Shown: piece after piece, positions 39,734-57,715 of the stretch | Layout of the letters: the number at the start of each line of letters is the position of its first letter | Position numbering within the stretch: the first letter of the stretch is position 1 | DNA from: Oscillibacter ruminantium GH1 | Lineage (GTDB): Bacteria; Bacillota; Clostridia; Oscillospirales; Oscillospiraceae | NCBI RefSeq assembly: GCF_000307265.1 | Contig: NZ_DF158898.1 | Span: forward strand, 62,001-126,000 | Length of the DNA stretch: 64,000 nt | Direction: 5' to 3' | Made by a program: the position numbers and the translations under genes | Notes under the pieces: model-generated | Seen by the model: only the letters and a program-made list of their open reading frames with translations | The model's database searches: none | Told to the model about the DNA's origin: nothing

Positions 39734-40918
39734 TTACAAAAGCGTTTCCTCGTTTTGCGTGTCGAAGAGGTGAACCAGATCATGCCGGAAGGAGAAATAG
39801 AAGGAATCCCCCCGATGCAGGCCATTTGGCCATTTTTCCGAAAGCTCCAGCGTGGGAACCCGCACAACCACGTCCTTTCCCTCTGCACTCACATGGAGGT
39901 GGATTTCACTGCCCATCATTTCGGATACATCCACCTGCGCGGCGACGGTGTGCGCCCCCGCCTGCGTCTCCAGCTGAATGTGCTCGGGACGGATACCGAT
40001 GCTTACCGCCATAGGAGCGACGCCAGCGGCGTTTAGGGCCGCCTGCGTTTTCTGTCCCAGAGGAATGACTGCCCCGGCAGTCTCCGCCTGCCAAACGCCA
40101 TTTGTCTGAATCAGCTTTCCGTCAAAAAAGTTCATCTGGGGCGAGCCGATAAAGCCCGCCACAAACAAATTGATGGGGTGGTCGAAAACCTCCTGCGGCG
40201 TACCGATCTGCTGGATGACGCCGCCTTTCATAATAACGATGCGGTCGCCCAGTGTCATAGCTTCTGTTTGATCGTGGGTGACATAGAGGAACGTGGTATT
40301 GATGCGGGTGCGCAGCTTGATTAGCTCCGCGCGCATTTGGTTGCGCAGCTTTGCATCCAGATTGGAGAGGGGTTCGTCCATCAGGAATACCTGCGGGTTC
40401 CGAACGATGGCCCGCCCGATGGCAACCCGTTGGCGCTGACCACCGGAAAGCGCCTTGGGCTTGCGGTCTAGGTACTGGGTGATGTCCAAAATCTCCGCCG
40501 CCTCGCGCACCTTGCGGTCCATTTCGTCCTTGGGCGTTTTCTTCAGCTTTAAGGAAAAAGCCATGTTCTCATAGACCGTCATGTGGGGGTACAGGGCGTA
40601 ATTCTGAAACACCATGGCGATATCCCGGTCCTTGGGGGCCACATCGTTCATCAGCCTGCCACCCATGTACAGTTCCCCGCCGCTGATCTCCTCCAAACCC
40701 GCCACCATGCGCAGCGTGGTGGACTTTCCGCAGCCGGAAGGCCCCACCAGCACCACGAATTCCTTGTCGGCAATTTCTAGATTGAAATCCTGAACGGCCA
40801 ACACGCCTTCATCGGTGATCTGAAGGTCAGCCAGTTTCTCGCCGCCGTCCTTTCGGTGCTTCTTGGCCTCTGTGTTGGGATAAACCTTCTTGATGTTTTT
40901 CAAAATAACTTCTGCCAT
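39734..40918 (-). CDS. sugar ABC transporter ATP-binding protein (UgpC/MsmX family)
   Basis: 394 residues. After a short insert rich in Lys ([16 protein letters not shown], known in clostridial MsmX-like ATPases) come Walker [11 protein letters not shown] near 60, signature [16 protein letters not shown] near 155, Walker [13 protein letters not shown], and the H-loop [10 protein letters not shown]. The C-terminal 140 residues form the TOBE/regulatory region. MsmX-type ATPases often serve several sugar importers. It lies last on the strand after both permeases, 180 bases away, so it belongs to the same importer but may be made separately. Confidence 0.92.
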
Positions 40919-41098
40919 GCTTAGGGCTTTGACGGAGCCGCTTCCGCGCCGCCGCCTCGCGGGCAGACTTACGTCCGCGCCGCCTTACGGCAAGCTCCAC
41001 CGCTGCCGCACCGCAAGCCAAACGGAATACCTTTTTTTTCGTCCGGTCCGCCAAAAAGTGGAGCAGCGGAAACGGATTGAAATCGTGGGCGGGAAATG

Positions 41099-50409: not shown

Positions 50410-50438
50410 ATTATAGAGTTTCCGAAACCCAATGTCAA
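50410..50438 (-). promoter_or_regulatory. consensus promoter of greA-lysS
   Basis: On the minus strand a perfect TTGACA (50438-50433), 17-base spacer and a perfect TATAAT (50415-50410). Confidence 0.9.
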
Positions 50439-50508
50439 GCGGTTCCGTGATGCTGAGGACAGTTTAAAGGACATGGGATGCACAAATGCGAAAACCGTCG
50501 AAAAACGG

Positions 50509-50536
50509 TTGCAAAATTATAGAAAAATGATATACT
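50509..50536 (+). promoter_or_regulatory. promoter of the small 50.5-kb transcription unit
   Basis: TTGCAA (50509-50514), 16-base spacer and TATACT (50531-50536) with TGA just before it (extended -10). An inverted repeat AACCGT/ACGGTT at 50494-50510 touches the -35 box. Confidence 0.65.
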
Positions 50537-50564
50537 GAAAAAAAATAGGCGGAGGAAATATCGG

Positions 50565-50738
50565 ATGGCTTTTGGTGAAAACGCTGCAAGCCAATGCGAT
50601 TTAAAGGCAGAGGCGGATATTGTGCGGTGCTGCCTTAAGTGCGATACAGTTTTGAAAAGAAAGAAAAGGGACAACTCCGGCGGCGAATGCCGCCGCACAA
50701 AGTCGAGAGCCATAGCGCGAGCAGGTGGCGGCAACTGA
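50565..50738 (+). CDS. possible Cys-containing 57-residue protein
   Basis: ATG 50565 has GGAGG nine bases upstream, and the frame runs 57 codons to TGA. The product starts MAFGENAASQCDLKAEADIV and has five cysteines (11, 22, 23, 26, 42, including CCLKC), with a basic second half (LKRKKRD, CRRTKSRAIARA). There is no membrane helix. The Cys spacing could hold a metal. Codon use is mixed (ATA, AGA, TTA), unlike the highly expressed neighbours, so the frame may be chance within an RNA. Promoter, ribosome binding site and terminator in order favour a real gene, but evidence is limited. Confidence 0.35.
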   Translation: MAFGENAASQCDLKAEADIVRCCLKCDTVLKRKKRDNSGGECRRTKSRAIARAGGGN

Positions 50739-50749
50739 AGAGTTGGGAA

Positions 50750-50785
50750 AGCGCCTGTCATGCGGCTGACAGGCGCTTTTTGCGC
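50750..50785 (+). terminator. intrinsic terminator of the small unit
   Basis: AGCGCCTGTCA and TGACAGGCGCT around TGCGGC, followed by TTTTTGC. The 140 bases from here to the next gene show no clear promoter. Confidence 0.85.
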
Positions 50786-50923
50786 ACGGTCATGGCATTG
50801 ACGGACCTTACCGGTTTTCCGCAATGAAGGGCCCAGTCAGCAGGTGGGCGAGGACTCTCGGAATTTTACTGCGTATGCGTTTCCGTCAGGAAGGGCATCT
50901 GCAATGCTCTGGAGGGGTTAGTA

Positions 50924-53900
50924 ATGGCGGAACAGACGGGAAAACCCGTGGTTCTCGTAGTGGATGATTCACGAACAAATCTCAAGCTGCTCCATGAGAT
51001 ATTTTCTAAGGAATATCAGGTGGAGCAGGCGGAAAACGGTCTGCAGGCGATGGCTATTTTAAGACGCGTGGCGGATGTGGCCGCCGTGATTTTGGATATA
51101 AAAATGCCGGAACTGGACGGCTATGGCGTGCTGCGGGCCATGCGAGCGGACGAGCAGCTTCGGGATATTCCGGTTGTGGTAGACACCGGCAGCGACGACC
51201 TTGAAAGCCAGCTCAAGGCGCTGGATTTGGGCGCCTTGGATGTGCTGATCAAGCCGTTCAATCCGCAGATCGCCCTGCACCGGGTGCGCAATCTGATCAA
51301 CCACCGGGAAGCCGGACAGCAGGCGGCGCGCAACCGCGTTCTGGAAGAGCAGCTTCGCCAGTCTGAGATTGATGAGAGGACGGGAATCCTCAATAAGAAA
51401 GCATTTTGCCGCAAAACCGCTGAATTGCTGGCAGCTCACCCGAATAAAAGCTATGTGATCCTGCGCTGGGATATTGATCGCTTTAAAATTTTTAACGATA
51501 CCTTTGGCGTACCTGCGGGCGATATCCTGTTGAGTGAAATCGGGCAGATACTCTGCAACAACGCCAAACCGGGAACGACTTGCGGACACTGGGAAGCGGA
51601 TCACTTTGTCCTTTGCGTGGAGGCGGCGCAGTTTCAGGCGTATGAGTTTATTACGGAACTAAACCGAACGATTGGTGCGCTCAACTCCCTGTATGACGAT
51701 TTCGATTTTGTCACCCGGGTAGGCGTGTATCAGGTAAATGACCCGACAATCGACGTGTCGCTGATGTGCGACCGGGCGCTGCTGGCGCTGCGCTCTGTTA
51801 AAAACAACTATTTGGCGCGCGTGGCGTTTTATGACGATTCCATGCGTGCGTCGCTACTGGAGGAGCAGGAGATTCTTCAGGAGATGGAACGCGCTCTGGC
51901 GCAGGGGCAGTTTGTCGTGTACTTGCAGCCGCAGTATGACTATGCTGCGGGAACCCTCGACGGCGCAGAGGCGCTGGTGCGGTGGCAGCATCCGAAAAAG
52001 GGACTGATTTCTCCGGGAAAATTTATTCCTGTCTTTGAGCGCAATGGTTTTATCAGCAACGTGGACGAGTATGTCTGGGAACAGGTGTGCCGTATGCTGC
52101 GCGGATGGCTGGATGACGGAAAGCCAATTGTGCCGATTTCGGTTAATATTTCGCGGCGGGACATCTATCGGTCCCATCTGTGCGGACTGCTTCAGAATCT
52201 TGTAAAGAAATATCGGCTTGCGCCTGAGCTTCTTCGTTTGGAGATCACCGAGTCGGCGTATATGGACAATCCCGACCAGCTGATCGAAATTGTCAACGAG
52301 CTGCTTGCAGCGGGCTTTACCGTGGAGATGGACGATTTCGGAAGCGGTTATTCCTCGCTCAACACGCTGAAGGATGTGCCGGTTCAGACGCTGAAGCTGG
52401 ACATGAAGTTCCTTGAAAAGAGCATGAACGACACGAGGGGCGGCAACATCCTTACATCGGTTATCCGCATGGCCCACTGGCTCAAGCTGCCCGTGATTGC
52501 CGAGGGCGTGGAGACAAAGGCGCAGGCGGATTACCTCAAAAGCATCGGCTGCACCCATATGCAGGGCTACTATTTTGCAAAGCCGATGCCGGTGAAGGAA
52601 TTTGAAAAGATTCTTGCTTCCAGTACGCTAAAGGGCGGCAACCAAAAGTGCTTTTCCGACGATATTGAGGGCGCGGAGAATTTCCTTTCCGCCTCTACGC
52701 AGGCGACTCTCTTGTTCAACAGCTTTGTGGGCGGGGCGGCTATCATCGAATATGACGGCAGTAATGTGGAGGCCTTGCGCCTAAACGACAAATATTTTGA
52801 AACGCTGGGCGTCACGCGTGAGGAGTATGCGGGCAAGCAGCTCCATCTGCTGGATCGCTTTGACAAGGAAAACCGGGCGATTCTGGTAAACGCGATTGAA
52901 AAGGCCATCGAAACCGGCAGGGAGAGCAGCTGCGAACTGCACTCTCTGCCAATCGGGGGCCACAACCACACCCTTTGGACAAGAGTGCAGCTGCGGCTTT
53001 TGGCTCAAAACGCAAACCGTTACATTCTCTATCTGGCGGTGGAGGATATTACGCAGAGAGTAAAGCTGCTGACCCAGAACTCGGAACTGACAGAGCATCT
53101 TTCCGCCATCATGGACAATCTTCCCGGTGGCATTTTAGACTATGAGATCACGGACAAAGCGCGTATCAGCTATTTCAACGATATGGCTCCGGCGATGTTT
53201 GGATATACGCGGGAGGAGTATCAAAAGCTGTTTGCCGACGATCCGCTGGCCACCATCCACCCCGATGATTTCCCAAAGGCAGGCCGTCAGATTGGTCGGC
53301 TGATCCGCGGAGAGGTTCCCACGCTGGAAACGGTCTACCGCCATATCTGCCGGAACGGCACTTGGCGCTATGTACGTCTAACTGCCCGCGTTTTAAGAAA
53401 AAATGGAGACGTCAGATTTGCAAGCGGAATCCTGCTTGATATTGACGATGAGGTAAAGAGCCGGCAAACTGCGGCAAAGCAGGAGCAGGAATTGGAAAAG
53501 CAGCGGATCTCGCTGCAAGCGCTATACGACACGATCCCTTGCGGCATTATGCAGTTTTCAGCCGCCAGTAAGGAGGGCGAAACGGGGAAACTGCTCAGCC
53601 TGAACGATACCGCATGGAAAATTAGCGGCTATGACAGCCGCAGCCAGTATGTGGCGGCCATGCGCGGAAAAAGCAAGCTGAAAGATGTTTATCCCGAAGA
53701 TTTGCCCATTGTGAGCGAGGCCCTTAAGAAAATCTCTGCGGCAAAGACGGGGATGCAGACGGATTGCGAGTTTCGAATCATCCGCCCGGATGGCAGCATC
53801 CGGTGGCTGCGGGTGCTGCTTCAGAGAGTGAACTATCAGAACGGTGAAGAGGCCATTCAGGTGGTGCTCAGCGATATCAGCCACCGCAAGCAGGCGGATC

Positions 53901-56900
53901 TAAAGCGTCTGAGCGGCGCGCTGTTCGGATTATTCGACGAAGTTTTTGAGTTTGATTTGGATCAGAATATCTGCTCCATGAGATCGGCAAAAAATCCAGA
54001 TGATTCCCGCATTGGCAAATTAATGCCCTTTAACCGGACCCTTGACATATTATGTGAGCGGTATGCGTTTCCAGAGGATCGTCAACGAATTCGGGACTTT
54101 TACCAAAGAACGGGCAATCGTGCAAACGCCATGCCGGAGACGCTGGAATACCGGTATCATGACGCGGAGGGAAAAGAACACTGGGCGTCCAATACGGTGC
54201 TGTATCTAAGCGGGTCGGTGCATCTGAGCTGCAACAAGGACATCACGGGCCAGAAAAACGCCGAGTTTTTGGCTAAGGAAAATGAAAAGCTGCAGGCACT
54301 TGCCGCCGCGCAGCAAAAGGAAAGTGAGCGGAACCGTCTTTTTATTGAAAAAACCGGCGTACTGGTCTATGACTATGACCCCGTTTCCGATGTTTTAAAA
54401 ACACAGCGCATGGACTCGGAGCGCGGCGTTGTCGAGGAGATGACACGGCACTATTTTGCTACACTTTCCGATAATCCCTTCATCAGTGTAGAGGATCGGG
54501 AACGCATCCGGGAGATGTTCGCGGAGGCGATCAAGGAACCGCTCCGCCGAACCCTTGAATACCGGTCGAACCGCTTTGGCGGTGGATTTTGCGATTGCTC
54601 CGTGCAAATTGCCTCCATCGCAAACGAGGCGGGAAAGGTCTGCCGGATCGTGGGGCAGGTCAGTCAAGTACAGAACGATATGAATCAGAGCTTGAACAAA
54701 AAGCTGTTTGAGTTCACAGGCTGCGATTTTAAGGACTTGGCCTATGACCGGAGGGCTGTGCGAGAGGTGCTTCAAACGCTGAATGCCGCTGCCGATTCGC
54801 GGACGGCTGTGCAGGCGATCCTGTCTTATCTGGGAGAAAAATTTGATGTCAGCCGCACCTATATCATGCAGAAAGAGGAAGATGGGCGGTATCTTTTAAA
54901 TACGTTTGAATGGTGCGGCGGCGATGCTGCACCAGAGAAGAACCATCTTCCGTCCCGGGCCTACCGAGAGGCCCCAGAGAGAAAATACGCGGAACTATTC
55001 GGCGACAATGAGATTTTCTCCTGCTCCGATGTTTCCACACTTCCGGACTGGATACGAAAAGAACTGGAGCCTCGGGGAGTCAGGGCGATCATCCAGTGCG
55101 CAATTTTGAAGGGTGGGGCGTTCTGCGGCTGTCTTGGCTTTGATGAGTGCCGGCGCACCAGAATCTGGACAGGGCAGCAGATTAACGTACTGCGCATTGT
55201 GGCCCAGATTTTAAGTACCCTTCTGTTCTCAAATCATGAAAACGATAATTTCGATCTGCCGGAGGAGACACTGCGGCGAATGGACAGCAGCCCGGCTTAT
55301 ATCTATATGGTCGATCCCGATACCTATGAAGTCCTTTATTGGAACCCCTCTGTTGAGGCATCAAAGGGCGTTCCGCTGAGAGGGGAATCATGCTACAAGG
55401 CATTTGCCCGACGCGACGCTGTGTGTCCCGGGTGTCCGATCAGGTCGCTTTCTTGGATGGGACTGTCCCTCCCTGTGGAGGCGGAAAATGACGGCCGCCG
55501 CTATATCATGCAGGCATCCTCCTTCCTGTGGCATGGACGCAAGGTGATTCAGGTTTTGGGTACGGATCGAAGCTGCTTTGCAGAAAATGTGCCACAAATC
55601 CGTCAGACCGAGTACAATTGGACGCTCCAGCTCTATACCAGAACACTGAGCGCGCTGTACGATGAAATTGTTGAATTCAACTTCGCCGCCAATACGTTTT
55701 TGCCACTGTATGCAAACTACAAGCAGACAGGCAGAGGCGTTAGAGCAACGAACCTTTACCAGACATTTACGAAATGGATAGAAACCTATGTGTGCGCGAA
55801 GGACCGGGCCGCGCTTGATGAATTTATGGACCTTGCGCATATCCGGGAGATGTTCCGCAAGGGCCGGACTCCCTCGATGAACTACCAAATCTCTCTGCCG
55901 GACGGTTCGCTCCACTACTGCCAAAGTACGCTGCTGCAGATGGATGTAAGCCGCTATCTGTGCTGCACCAAGGACGTGACAAGTCAAAAAAATGCGGAGC
56001 TGGACAGAGAGAAACTGCAAATTCTAAAATCGCAGGCAGAGAACCAGAACCTGTACCGCGTCATCGTGGCGCAAACCGGGATCGCCGCGTTTGAGATGAA
56101 TCTGCAAACCGGAAAATTCTCATCCACAAAGGCGTATCATAAGTACGAGATGAGCCGGTGCGACCAGCAGGAAATTATCTACAACCGCGGGGACCGCAGC
56201 ATTGTCCATCCGGACGACCAGCAGCTTCTTGACCGCTTTTTTAATGCGACGAAGACACAAACGCCTTATCTGGAAGAGACTCTCCGCGTGAAAATGACGG
56301 ATGGAAGCTATCGCTGGACGAAAATGGCGGGAACCTTCCTCAAGGATAAAAACGGCAAGGTGCTGCGCATCATCGGCAGCCTGACGGATTTGGATGCGCA
56401 GATGCGGTCAAAAATTGCACTGGAGCGGCTTTTAACCAGAATGCAGCAAATCATTTCAAATATTCCCACAGGCGTTGCGATTTATGAAATGGAGGAAGGA
56501 AAGCTGCTGCCGGTCTATGCCAGCGACAAAACCTGCGAGATGTTTGGTTTTACAAGGAAAGAGTATGATTTGCGTATTGCCAATGGCCAATCCACGAATT
56601 TTGTGCCCACGGCGGATGAACTGACAAAGGCCGGACTTGAGACGCTGATGTCGGGCAAGCCGCTGGTGATTAGAAGAATGCACGCAAAGAGGAAGGATGG
56701 AAGCCGGTTTTGGCTGCGGGCTTTTTGCAGCATGAGCAGAAACGAGGAGGGAGTTCCGCTGTATTATGCGGTTCTGGTAAATATTACAGAGGAACTGGCA
56801 CGGGAGCAGGAGTACCTTTGGCAAATGGAAAAGTATCGAATTTTGAGCGAGTCCACAGATGTAATAACCTTTGACTATGCGCCGCAGGACGACGTTATGC

Positions 56901-57715
56901 GCATTTCGCTGCACCTACCGGGTGAAGATCCCATTGAAACGACCTATGAACACTATGCGGAGGAGGTTTCCCACGGAGATCAAATTTCCAACGAGGAAGA
57001 GCGGCGCTTTATTTCCGCCCTGCGCAGCGCCGCCAGTGACCGCGCCAGCGGAACCTATGATTTCCGAGGAAATTATTACGGGACGCTGCGCTGGTATCGC
57101 GCAAAATATGTGACGCTTGCCGACGAGGAAGGGTGCGCCTATCGGGTGATTGGCCGATTGGACGATATCAACGATATGATGCTGGAAAAGGACCGGTTCC
57201 GCATGGACGCGCAGTATGACGAATTGACCGGAATCCTTAACAAAAACTACGGTCTGACGGCGATCAAGCAGGCTTTGAAGAAGCGGACGCTGGAGGAGGT
57301 TAACTGCATCCTGTTTATGGATATCGACAATTTCAAGTGGATCAACGATTCCTATGGCCATCTGGAGGCGGATCAGGTGCTCAGGCAGGTGGGCATGATT
57401 TTGCGGAAACTGTTCTCTGGGGCGGATATTGTTGTCCGTTTTGGAGGCGATGAGTTCATCGTTTATATGAAGTCTGCCGCCTCGCTTGAAGCTGCTGAGA
57501 AAAAGGCCGCCAGAATTCTGGAGGAGTTGCATCGAATCACCATCGGCACTGAAAAACCGATTCGGGCCAGTATCGGCATCATCAGCATCGCCGGAGAGAG
57601 CGCCGACTATGAAAGCGTTTTCAAATGCGTGGATGAGGCGCTGTACAAGGCAAAAAAAGAAGGCAAGGATCGGTATACGGCCCTGAAATACAGGCCAAAG
57701 AAAAACGGCAAATAA
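50924..57715 (+). CDS. giant cyclic-di-GMP signalling protein: REC, degenerate GGDEF, EAL, PAS array, GAF, GGDEF
   Basis: 2263 residues; GGAGGGG seven bases ahead of ATG. Order: receiver domain (1-125; Asp14, Asp15, phospho-acceptor Asp58, Thr88, Lys110); GGDEF-like domain (150-310) with EADHF (224-228) in place of GGDEF, so cyclase-dead; EAL domain (320-570) with an intact site (Glu349, Asp470-Asp471, Lys491, Glu527); about five PAS-like units (590-1270); GAF domain (about 1278-1434); about five more PAS units (1460-2080); and a C-terminal GGDEF domain (2096-2260) with intact GGDEF at 2174-2178 but no RxxD inhibitory site. One PAS unit near 1487 has a cysteine set CYKAFARRDAVCPGCP. No transmembrane helix. 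It may thus both break and make cyclic-di-GMP in the cytosol. Confidence 0.92.
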   Translation: MAEQTGKPVVLVVDDSRTNLKLLHEIFSKEYQVEQAENGLQAMAILRRVADVAAVILDIKMPELDGYGVLRAMRADEQLRDIPVVVDTGSDDLESQLKALDLGALDVLIKPFNPQIALHRVRNLINHREAGQQAARNRVLEEQLRQSEIDERTGILNKKAFCRKTAELLAAHPNKSYVILRWDIDRFKIFNDTFGVPAGDILLSEIGQILCNNAKPGTTCGHWEADHFVLCVEAAQFQAYEFITELNRTIGALNSLYDDFDFVTRVGVYQVNDPTIDVSLMCDRALLALRSVKNNYLARVAFYDDSMRASLLEEQEILQEMERALAQGQFVVYLQPQYDYAAGTLDGAEALVRWQHPKKGLISPGKFIPVFERNGFISNVDEYVWEQVCRMLRGWLDDGKPIVPISVNISRRDIYRSHLCGLLQNLVKKYRLAPELLRLEITESAYMDNPDQLIEIVNELLAAGFTVEMDDFGSGYSSLNTLKDVPVQTLKLDMKFLEKSMNDTRGGNILTSVIRMAHWLKLPVIAEGVETKAQADYLKSIGCTHMQGYYFAKPMPVKEFEKILASSTLKGGNQKCFSDDIEGAENFLSASTQATLLFNSFVGGAAIIEYDGSNVEALRLNDKYFETLGVTREEYAGKQLHLLDRFDKENRAILVNAIEKAIETGRESSCELHSLPIGGHNHTLWTRVQLRLLAQNANRYILYLAVEDITQRVKLLTQNSELTEHLSAIMDNLPGGILDYEITDKARISYFNDMAPAMFGYTREEYQKLFADDPLATIHPDDFPKAGRQIGRLIRGEVPTLETVYRHICRNGTWRYVRLTARVLRKNGDVRFASGILLDIDDEVKSRQTAAKQEQELEKQRISLQALYDTIPCGIMQFSAASKEGETGKLLSLNDTAWKISGYDSRSQYVAAMRGKSKLKDVYPEDLPIVSEALKKISAAKTGMQTDCEFRIIRPDGSIRWLRVLLQRVNYQNGEEAIQVVLSDISHRKQADLKRLSGALFGLFDEVFEFDLDQNICSMRSAKNPDDSRIGKLMPFNRTLDILCERYAFPEDRQRIRDFYQRTGNRANAMPETLEYRYHDAEGKEHWASNTVLYLSGSVHLSCNKDITGQKNAEFLAKENEKLQALAAAQQKESERNRLFIEKTGVLVYDYDPVSDVLKTQRMDSERGVVEEMTRHYFATLSDNPFISVEDRERIREMFAEAIKEPLRRTLEYRSNRFGGGFCDCSVQIASIANEAGKVCRIVGQVSQVQNDMNQSLNKKLFEFTGCDFKDLAYDRRAVREVLQTLNAAADSRTAVQAILSYLGEKFDVSRTYIMQKEEDGRYLLNTFEWCGGDAAPEKNHLPSRAYREAPERKYAELFGDNEIFSCSDVSTLPDWIRKELEPRGVRAIIQCAILKGGAFCGCLGFDECRRTRIWTGQQINVLRIVAQILSTLLFSNHENDNFDLPEETLRRMDSSPAYIYMVDPDTYEVLYWNPSVEASKGVPLRGESCYKAFARRDAVCPGCPIRSLSWMGLSLPVEAENDGRRYIMQASSFLWHGRKVIQVLGTDRSCFAENVPQIRQTEYNWTLQLYTRTLSALYDEIVEFNFAANTFLPLYANYKQTGRGVRATNLYQTFTKWIETYVCAKDRAALDEFMDLAHIREMFRKGRTPSMNYQISLPDGSLHYCQSTLLQMDVSRYLCCTKDVTSQKNAELDREKLQILKSQAENQNLYRVIVAQTGIAAFEMNLQTGKFSSTKAYHKYEMSRCDQQEIIYNRGDRSIVHPDDQQLLDRFFNATKTQTPYLEETLRVKMTDGSYRWTKMAGTFLKDKNGKVLRIIGSLTDLDAQMRSKIALERLLTRMQQIISNIPTGVAIYEMEEGKLLPVYASDKTCEMFGFTRKEYDLRIANGQSTNFVPTADELTKAGLETLMSGKPLVIRRMHAKRKDGSRFWLRAFCSMSRNEEGVPLYYAVLVNITEELAREQEYLWQMEKYRILSESTDVITFDYAPQDDVMRISLHLPGEDPIETTYEHYAEEVSHGDQISNEEERRFISALRSAASDRASGTYDFRGNYYGTLRWYRAKYVTLADEEGCAYRVIGRLDDINDMMLEKDRFRMDAQYDELTGILNKNYGLTAIKQALKKRTLEEVNCILFMDIDNFKWINDSYGHLEADQVLRQVGMILRKLFSGADIVVRFGGDEFIVYMKSAASLEAAEKKAARILEELHRITIGTEKPIRASIGIISIAGESADYESVFKCVDEALYKAKKEGKDRYTALKYRPKKNGK

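Follow-up and report, generated by a model that had tools for sequence, protein, structure and literature searches.

The window analysed here, a stretch of 64,000 nt from Oscillibacter ruminantium GH1, carries a compact unit between a divergent greA promoter and a gene for a giant cyclic-di-GMP protein of 2263 aa with response regulator, GGDEF, EAL, PAS, GAF and GGDEF domains (Table 1). The original prediction had described this unit as a small independent gene, with a promoter, several stems, a possible 57-residue Cys protein and a terminator, or alternatively as an attenuating leader of the giant gene. From promoter to terminator, all of the parts were located where they had been placed.

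Table 1. Features of the unit and its surroundings (positions in the window)
Feature	Position	Strand	Description
greA divergent promoter	50410-50438	-	TTGACA-17-TATAAT, 12/12
Extended -10 promoter, sigma-70 type	50509-50536	+	TTGCAA-16-TATACT; TG at 50528-50529
Putative ribosome-binding site	50551-50555	+	GGAGG, 9 nt 5' of the ATG
57-codon open frame	50565-50738	+	ATG at 50565, TGA stop at 50736-50738; probably no conserved or evolved protein
Possible left-end stub	50601-50610	+	TTAAAGGCAG; pairs with the right end in stem 2; judged from sequence only
IS5-type MITE/transposon right end	50611-50638	+	terminal inverted repeat of 20 nt (50619-50638), translated as IVRCCLK in the 57-codon frame
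GC-rich hairpin	50678-50695	+	CGGCGGC-GAAT-GCCGCCG; model matches in relatives taken as chance
Intrinsic terminator	50748-50781	+	13-bp perfect stem (50748-50779), loop of 6, TTTTT ending at 50781
Giant response regulator-GGDEF-EAL-PAS/GAF-GGDEF gene	50924-57715	+	likely downstream gene of the leader

The extended -10 promoter that had been proposed scores above chance: of 500 shuffles of 50441-50640 that keep the dinucleotides, only 11 reach its score. What had been called an AGGAGG-like site was confirmed as GGAGG, and this site and the 57-codon frame may be used for translation. The sequence CGGAGGAAAT likewise precedes ATG frames at three further loci (L089, L094 and L095), and fragments of 50500-50570 match gene-start DNA of several genomes elsewhere in the order. 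When 394 genomes of the order were searched, many of the matches to the 5' end proved to be look-alikes of promoters and ribosome sites, and several of those inspected precede other frames. Just past position 1501 of L094, behind a strong ribosome site, is a short Cys-rich frame that we take to resemble the SCIFF peptides. The strong terminator at the 3' end of the unit was also borne out: a GC-rich stem is followed by a T run, as expected of an intrinsic terminator, and none of 200 shuffles folds as well as the hairpin. It is one of four terminator-type sites on the plus strand of the window. A consensus scan omitted it because the rule of that scan lets the stem extend into the T run.

Within the unit lies the end of a mobile element. 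The 20-nt repeat, ATTGTGCGGTGCTGCCTTAA, is the spot shared by a second group of matches, found in eight genomes in the 394-genome search; the second-group sites in L092, L101 and L107 fall between long frames. We scanned 99 genomes for the pattern ATTGTGCGGTGYTGCCTTAA, which has Y at one position, allowing at most one mismatch and using the reversed pattern as a control. The pattern fits exactly both at 50619-50638, where Y is C, and at C5:2438-2457, where Y is T. The latter site ends an element with a transposase that reaches 313 bits (cut-off 140). Apart from the letter at Y, the repeat in the window is thus the same as that at the end of an element of the same genome with an IS5 transposase. 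In all, 11 sites were found in five of the 99 genomes, five of them in the genome studied here and six in four other genomes of the genus, and the reversed pattern gave none in any of the 99.

Two of the own-genome copies end 1135-bp elements bounded by 19-nt inverted repeats, one encoding a 325-aa transposase (NCBIfam IS5 family NF033581) and the other carrying the gene in two frames, and two further copies end MITEs of 167-168 bp. In other genomes, the repeat copies end elements of 54, 89, 167-168 and 235 bp. The MITE family of 167-168 bp, with its 54-bp minimal form, has ends in common with the IS5-type element and is represented by L121 and L123 on contig C2 of the same genome, by L116 and L120 in G024 and by L117 in G016. 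Five of the 14 other sites that were read have no partner at five or fewer mismatches, and some sit at contig edges. For the copy in the window, no left repeat was found within 1300 nt, where the best candidate mismatches at 9 of 20 positions, and what remains is a solo right end rather than an element with two ends. Because the outer edge of the repeat faces the giant gene, the promoter and the ATG sit on the inner side of the element, and the 57-codon frame therefore crosses the element boundary; the residues IVRCCLK are the translated terminal repeat.

The unit has no counterpart in the relatives searched, which comprised 60 and 394 genomes for its DNA and all 86 genus genomes for the peptide and for a structural model of 50657-50747. 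When the 394 genomes were searched with 50500-50748, 58 of them, own included, gave a match, and among the matches listed outside the own genome at most 53 of the 249 nt are covered. Comparison with the 60 relatives returned nothing beyond the 34-nt terminator stem in G023, and a search of plasmid DNA gave no match. The unit is likewise missing upstream of greA at 29 further loci of the genus that were read, which together with the own locus are the best 30 by GreA score of the 85 greA-bearing genomes. At these loci the matches are confined to the greA promoter region of L005 and L006 and to a weak piece in L017 (E 0.59). In G106, the closest genome by GreA (89% identical), neither the unit nor the giant gene lies in the 1500 nt beside greA. 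The original prediction had staked itself on a transcript from 50543 and on conservation of the frame or the stems in sister species; as to conservation, neither is kept in the genomes searched.

We considered the DNA upstream of 40 homologues of the giant gene. Between 88 and 420 nt of upstream DNA was used (88 nt for L079, 317 nt for L075). Left out of the 40 were L034 (fused to an upstream frame; its best site scores 8.2, with no terminator), L040 (match from residue 33), L157 (no start), L035 (its upstream DNA is that of L146), L041-L059 (weak homologues), and L061-L066, L155 and L156 (the same genes as some of L126-L138). A promoter-like site scoring at least 11 is present in 20 of the 40 homologues as against 34 of 1170 shuffles (3%), and at a laxer cut of 9.5 in 33 of the 40, but also in 359 of the 1170 shuffles; both cuts were picked after the data had been seen. 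Measured to start codons that are imperfect for a few homologues (L135, L136), 17 of the 20 sites lie at 30-207 nt and three at 286-330 nt. Four homologues share a promoter of the type TTGCTA/TTGCCA, TG, TATACT. Two others (L077 and L078) have very strong sites (TTGACA, 17, TATACT with TG), which precede the start by 286 and 297 nt, and their long leaders are free of terminator-like hairpins. Such hairpins occur in six of the 40 homologues, each time upstream of the promoter-like site, and none of the homologues that have a site carries a terminator between it and the start.

The site in the window scores 11.5 and is 387 nt from the start of the giant gene, with the terminator between. This distance slightly exceeds the longest among the homologues, but it is not unique in kind, as three of the 20 have leaders of 286-330 nt. 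No promoter better than shuffles was found in 50540-50923. Because the homologues tend to carry upstream sites and nothing better lies in that interval, 50509-50536 probably serves as the giant gene's promoter.

With middling confidence, we interpret the unit as the giant gene's own promoter and 5' leader, which a mobile element has remodelled and in which most transcription now ends. A housekeeping promoter would start an RNA near 50543, this RNA would pass the IS5-type scar, and most of it would end at the terminator near 50781 to give a by-product of about 240 nt, with a minority of read-through transcripts yielding expression of the giant gene. We infer the transcription, the read-through and the service of this promoter to the giant gene from the features described above, and the leader is probably attenuated without being demonstrably regulated. 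Several considerations count against the leader reading. A strong terminator ahead of a 2263-codon gene is costly unless something bypasses or regulates it. Expression of the giant gene could depend on a sigma factor outside the promoter scan, half of the 40 homologues lack a site at the cut of 11, and the homologues stand elsewhere in the chromosome, with identities of mostly 35-50%. Of the earlier suggestion of an attenuating leader, the leader is retained, given the sites upstream of the homologues and the lack of another good site before the giant gene in the window, and the regulated attenuation is not. If the interpretation is right, it offers a possible reason for low expression of a very large cyclic-di-GMP enzyme in one lineage.

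Alternatively, the transcript of about 240 nt could itself be the product of an independent small RNA gene, with the giant gene using another promoter. The promoter-to-terminator unit is complete, the T run of the terminator is on the plus side, and small RNAs derived from MITEs have been reported for Coxiella (PMC5896051). We nevertheless regard this alternative as unlikely, given the short coverage of the matches in other genomes of the order and the ordinary fold of the RNA without its terminator. As a yardstick for folding we used 160 stretches across the window, 5% of which fall below z -2.87. The entire unit with its terminator reaches z -3.2 to -3.3; without the terminator the leader (50543-50745) has z -1.74, with 11 of 200 shuffles folding equally well, and its fold is not clearly above chance. 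Single hairpins stand out locally (50655-50705, z -3.0; 50600-50641, z -2.6), and the leader minus its terminator is unremarkable.

The matches to the model of 50657-50747, a covariance model built from a single sequence entered twice, likewise speak against a small RNA gene where they were inspected. At E of 1 or less the model matches 19 of the 86 genus genomes, own included. Of the best matches in other genomes, one (L160, E 0.003) falls within a long frame and was set aside as a coding stretch. Another (L161, E 0.004) has almost every pair intact and was taken as the terminator of two converging frames, because it is situated between them, and in two more (L162, L163) several pairs are broken. 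On the minus strand, a match to the Atu_C9 family (35 bits, cut-off 40, E 1.9e-7) was attributed to chance, its paired part being the terminator stem.

We consider it quite unlikely that the unit is a regulated attenuator in which read-through to the giant gene depends on translation of the 57 codons or on a ligand. The arrangement would suit such a device: the promoter appears to belong to the giant gene, the ribosome site is good, and the stop codon is 9 nt before the terminator stem, a spacing that allows for a ribosome-based attenuator in that a ribosome there would be expected to cover the stem. The 5' arm of the terminator can also pair with the first bases of the leader (AUAGGCG). This closed-leader antiterminator looked striking, but 146 of 300 shuffled leaders pair as strongly, and no mutually exclusive structure above chance was found. 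Among the homologues with promoter-like sites, moreover, the lack of a terminator between site and start argues against a regulated attenuator.

Nor does the search for ligand-binding RNAs favour regulation. No Rfam family matches the plus strand of the unit at E up to 5, no covariance match to the c-di-GMP-I or c-di-GMP-II riboswitches is present at the site on that strand, and the three class-I cyclic-di-GMP riboswitches found in this genome sit elsewhere (L177, L178 and L179, on contigs C5 and C1). 6S RNA (RF00013) was likewise rejected for the site, since its one match in the genome is at C3:526713-526911, outside the window. Elsewhere in the window, at 40913-41081 on the minus strand, is a malK-I RNA (RF03069), which scores 97 bits and belongs to a known cis-regulatory family. 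A literature search on leader-peptide attenuation with cyclic-di-GMP and a terminator found nothing. The regulated form of the leader, including a switch operated by cyclic-di-GMP, as had been envisaged, is unsupported.

A real Cys-containing protein of 57 residues is distinctly improbable. Although the frame exists as described, its length is unremarkable, 69 frames of at least 40 aa being listed within 9 kb. In favour of a protein, the GGAGG and ATG look like gene starts of the order. The coding score of the frame is intermediate, because it is above that of shuffles (-0.13 per codon versus -0.39, sd 0.14, z 1.85) and most out-of-frame pieces (22 of 24 and 29 of 29 are at or below it), and below that of 92% of 171 real in-frame gene pieces, only 8% of which score as low. 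By segment, the score is about 0.01 for residues 1-12, 0.16 for the transposon part and -0.29 for the rest, with the worst scores in the last 32 residues. GC at the three codon positions is 0.51/0.54/0.54, compared with 0.64/0.42/0.67 in genes, and the frame lacks the pattern of genes in this respect.

Homology gives the protein no better standing. The best non-self match of the peptide in the 86 genus genomes (E 0.0099, 31% over 36 aa) is not convincing, and the frame is not conserved among these genomes. The peptide belongs to no family in Pfam, NCBIfam or PHROGs, and searches of phage and viral-contig peptides gave no convincing match. In G016, directly before the nearest giant homologue in the genus, lies a second frame of 57 codons that may have its own ribosome site (L129, 141-311, minus strand), and its product (MAGEN..., with CSCL) might be thought a relative and so speak for a protein. 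The two peptides are not significantly alike, however, as shuffles align equally well in 10-36% of cases (local) and 11-27% (global). The L129 peptide itself matches 41 of the 86 genus genomes at E of 1 or less, its best own-genome match (9.7e-4) being inside a 479-residue open frame, and like the window peptide it has no convincing relative among them. We therefore rejected this frame as a relative. Since the CCLK of the proposed protein is the IS5-family end, the frame is probably an accident of the transposon-end scar and its peptide incidental. The locus shows that a promoter, a transposon end and a terminator can together make up what looks convincingly like a small gene.

It is highly improbable that the transposon end has been recruited into a leader-peptide attenuator, in which ribosomes completing the frame would cover the terminator stem and so bring about read-through, and giant-gene output would follow the supply of charged Cys/Arg tRNA or the rate of translation.

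Leader-peptide attenuators of the tnaC kind consist of a promoter, a short frame and a terminator, followed by a large gene. The unit shares this order with them and with attenuators of the c-di-GMP-I class (RF01051), and differs from both in that no competing structure exceeds chance, Rfam gives no match and no conservation was found. The unit is also related to IS5-family insertion sequences and MITEs. The 20-nt repeat matches the ends of the two 1135-bp elements in the same genome and of MITEs of about 168, 89 and 54 bp, the difference being that the window retains one end, with no left repeat nearby. Comparable ideas have been published for other bacteria: MITE-derived small RNAs with promoters (QMITE1 of Coxiella; PMC5896051), small mobile RU elements of enterobacteria that contribute to reading frames (PMC2759123), and a conceivable role of MITEs as terminators or riboswitches (PMC10969869). 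Compared with QMITE1 and RU as portrayed there, the unit in the window retains only about 28 nt of the element and has its promoter upstream of it; what it has in common with them is a mobile-element end that sits inside a putative transcript and is translated, on paper, within an open frame.
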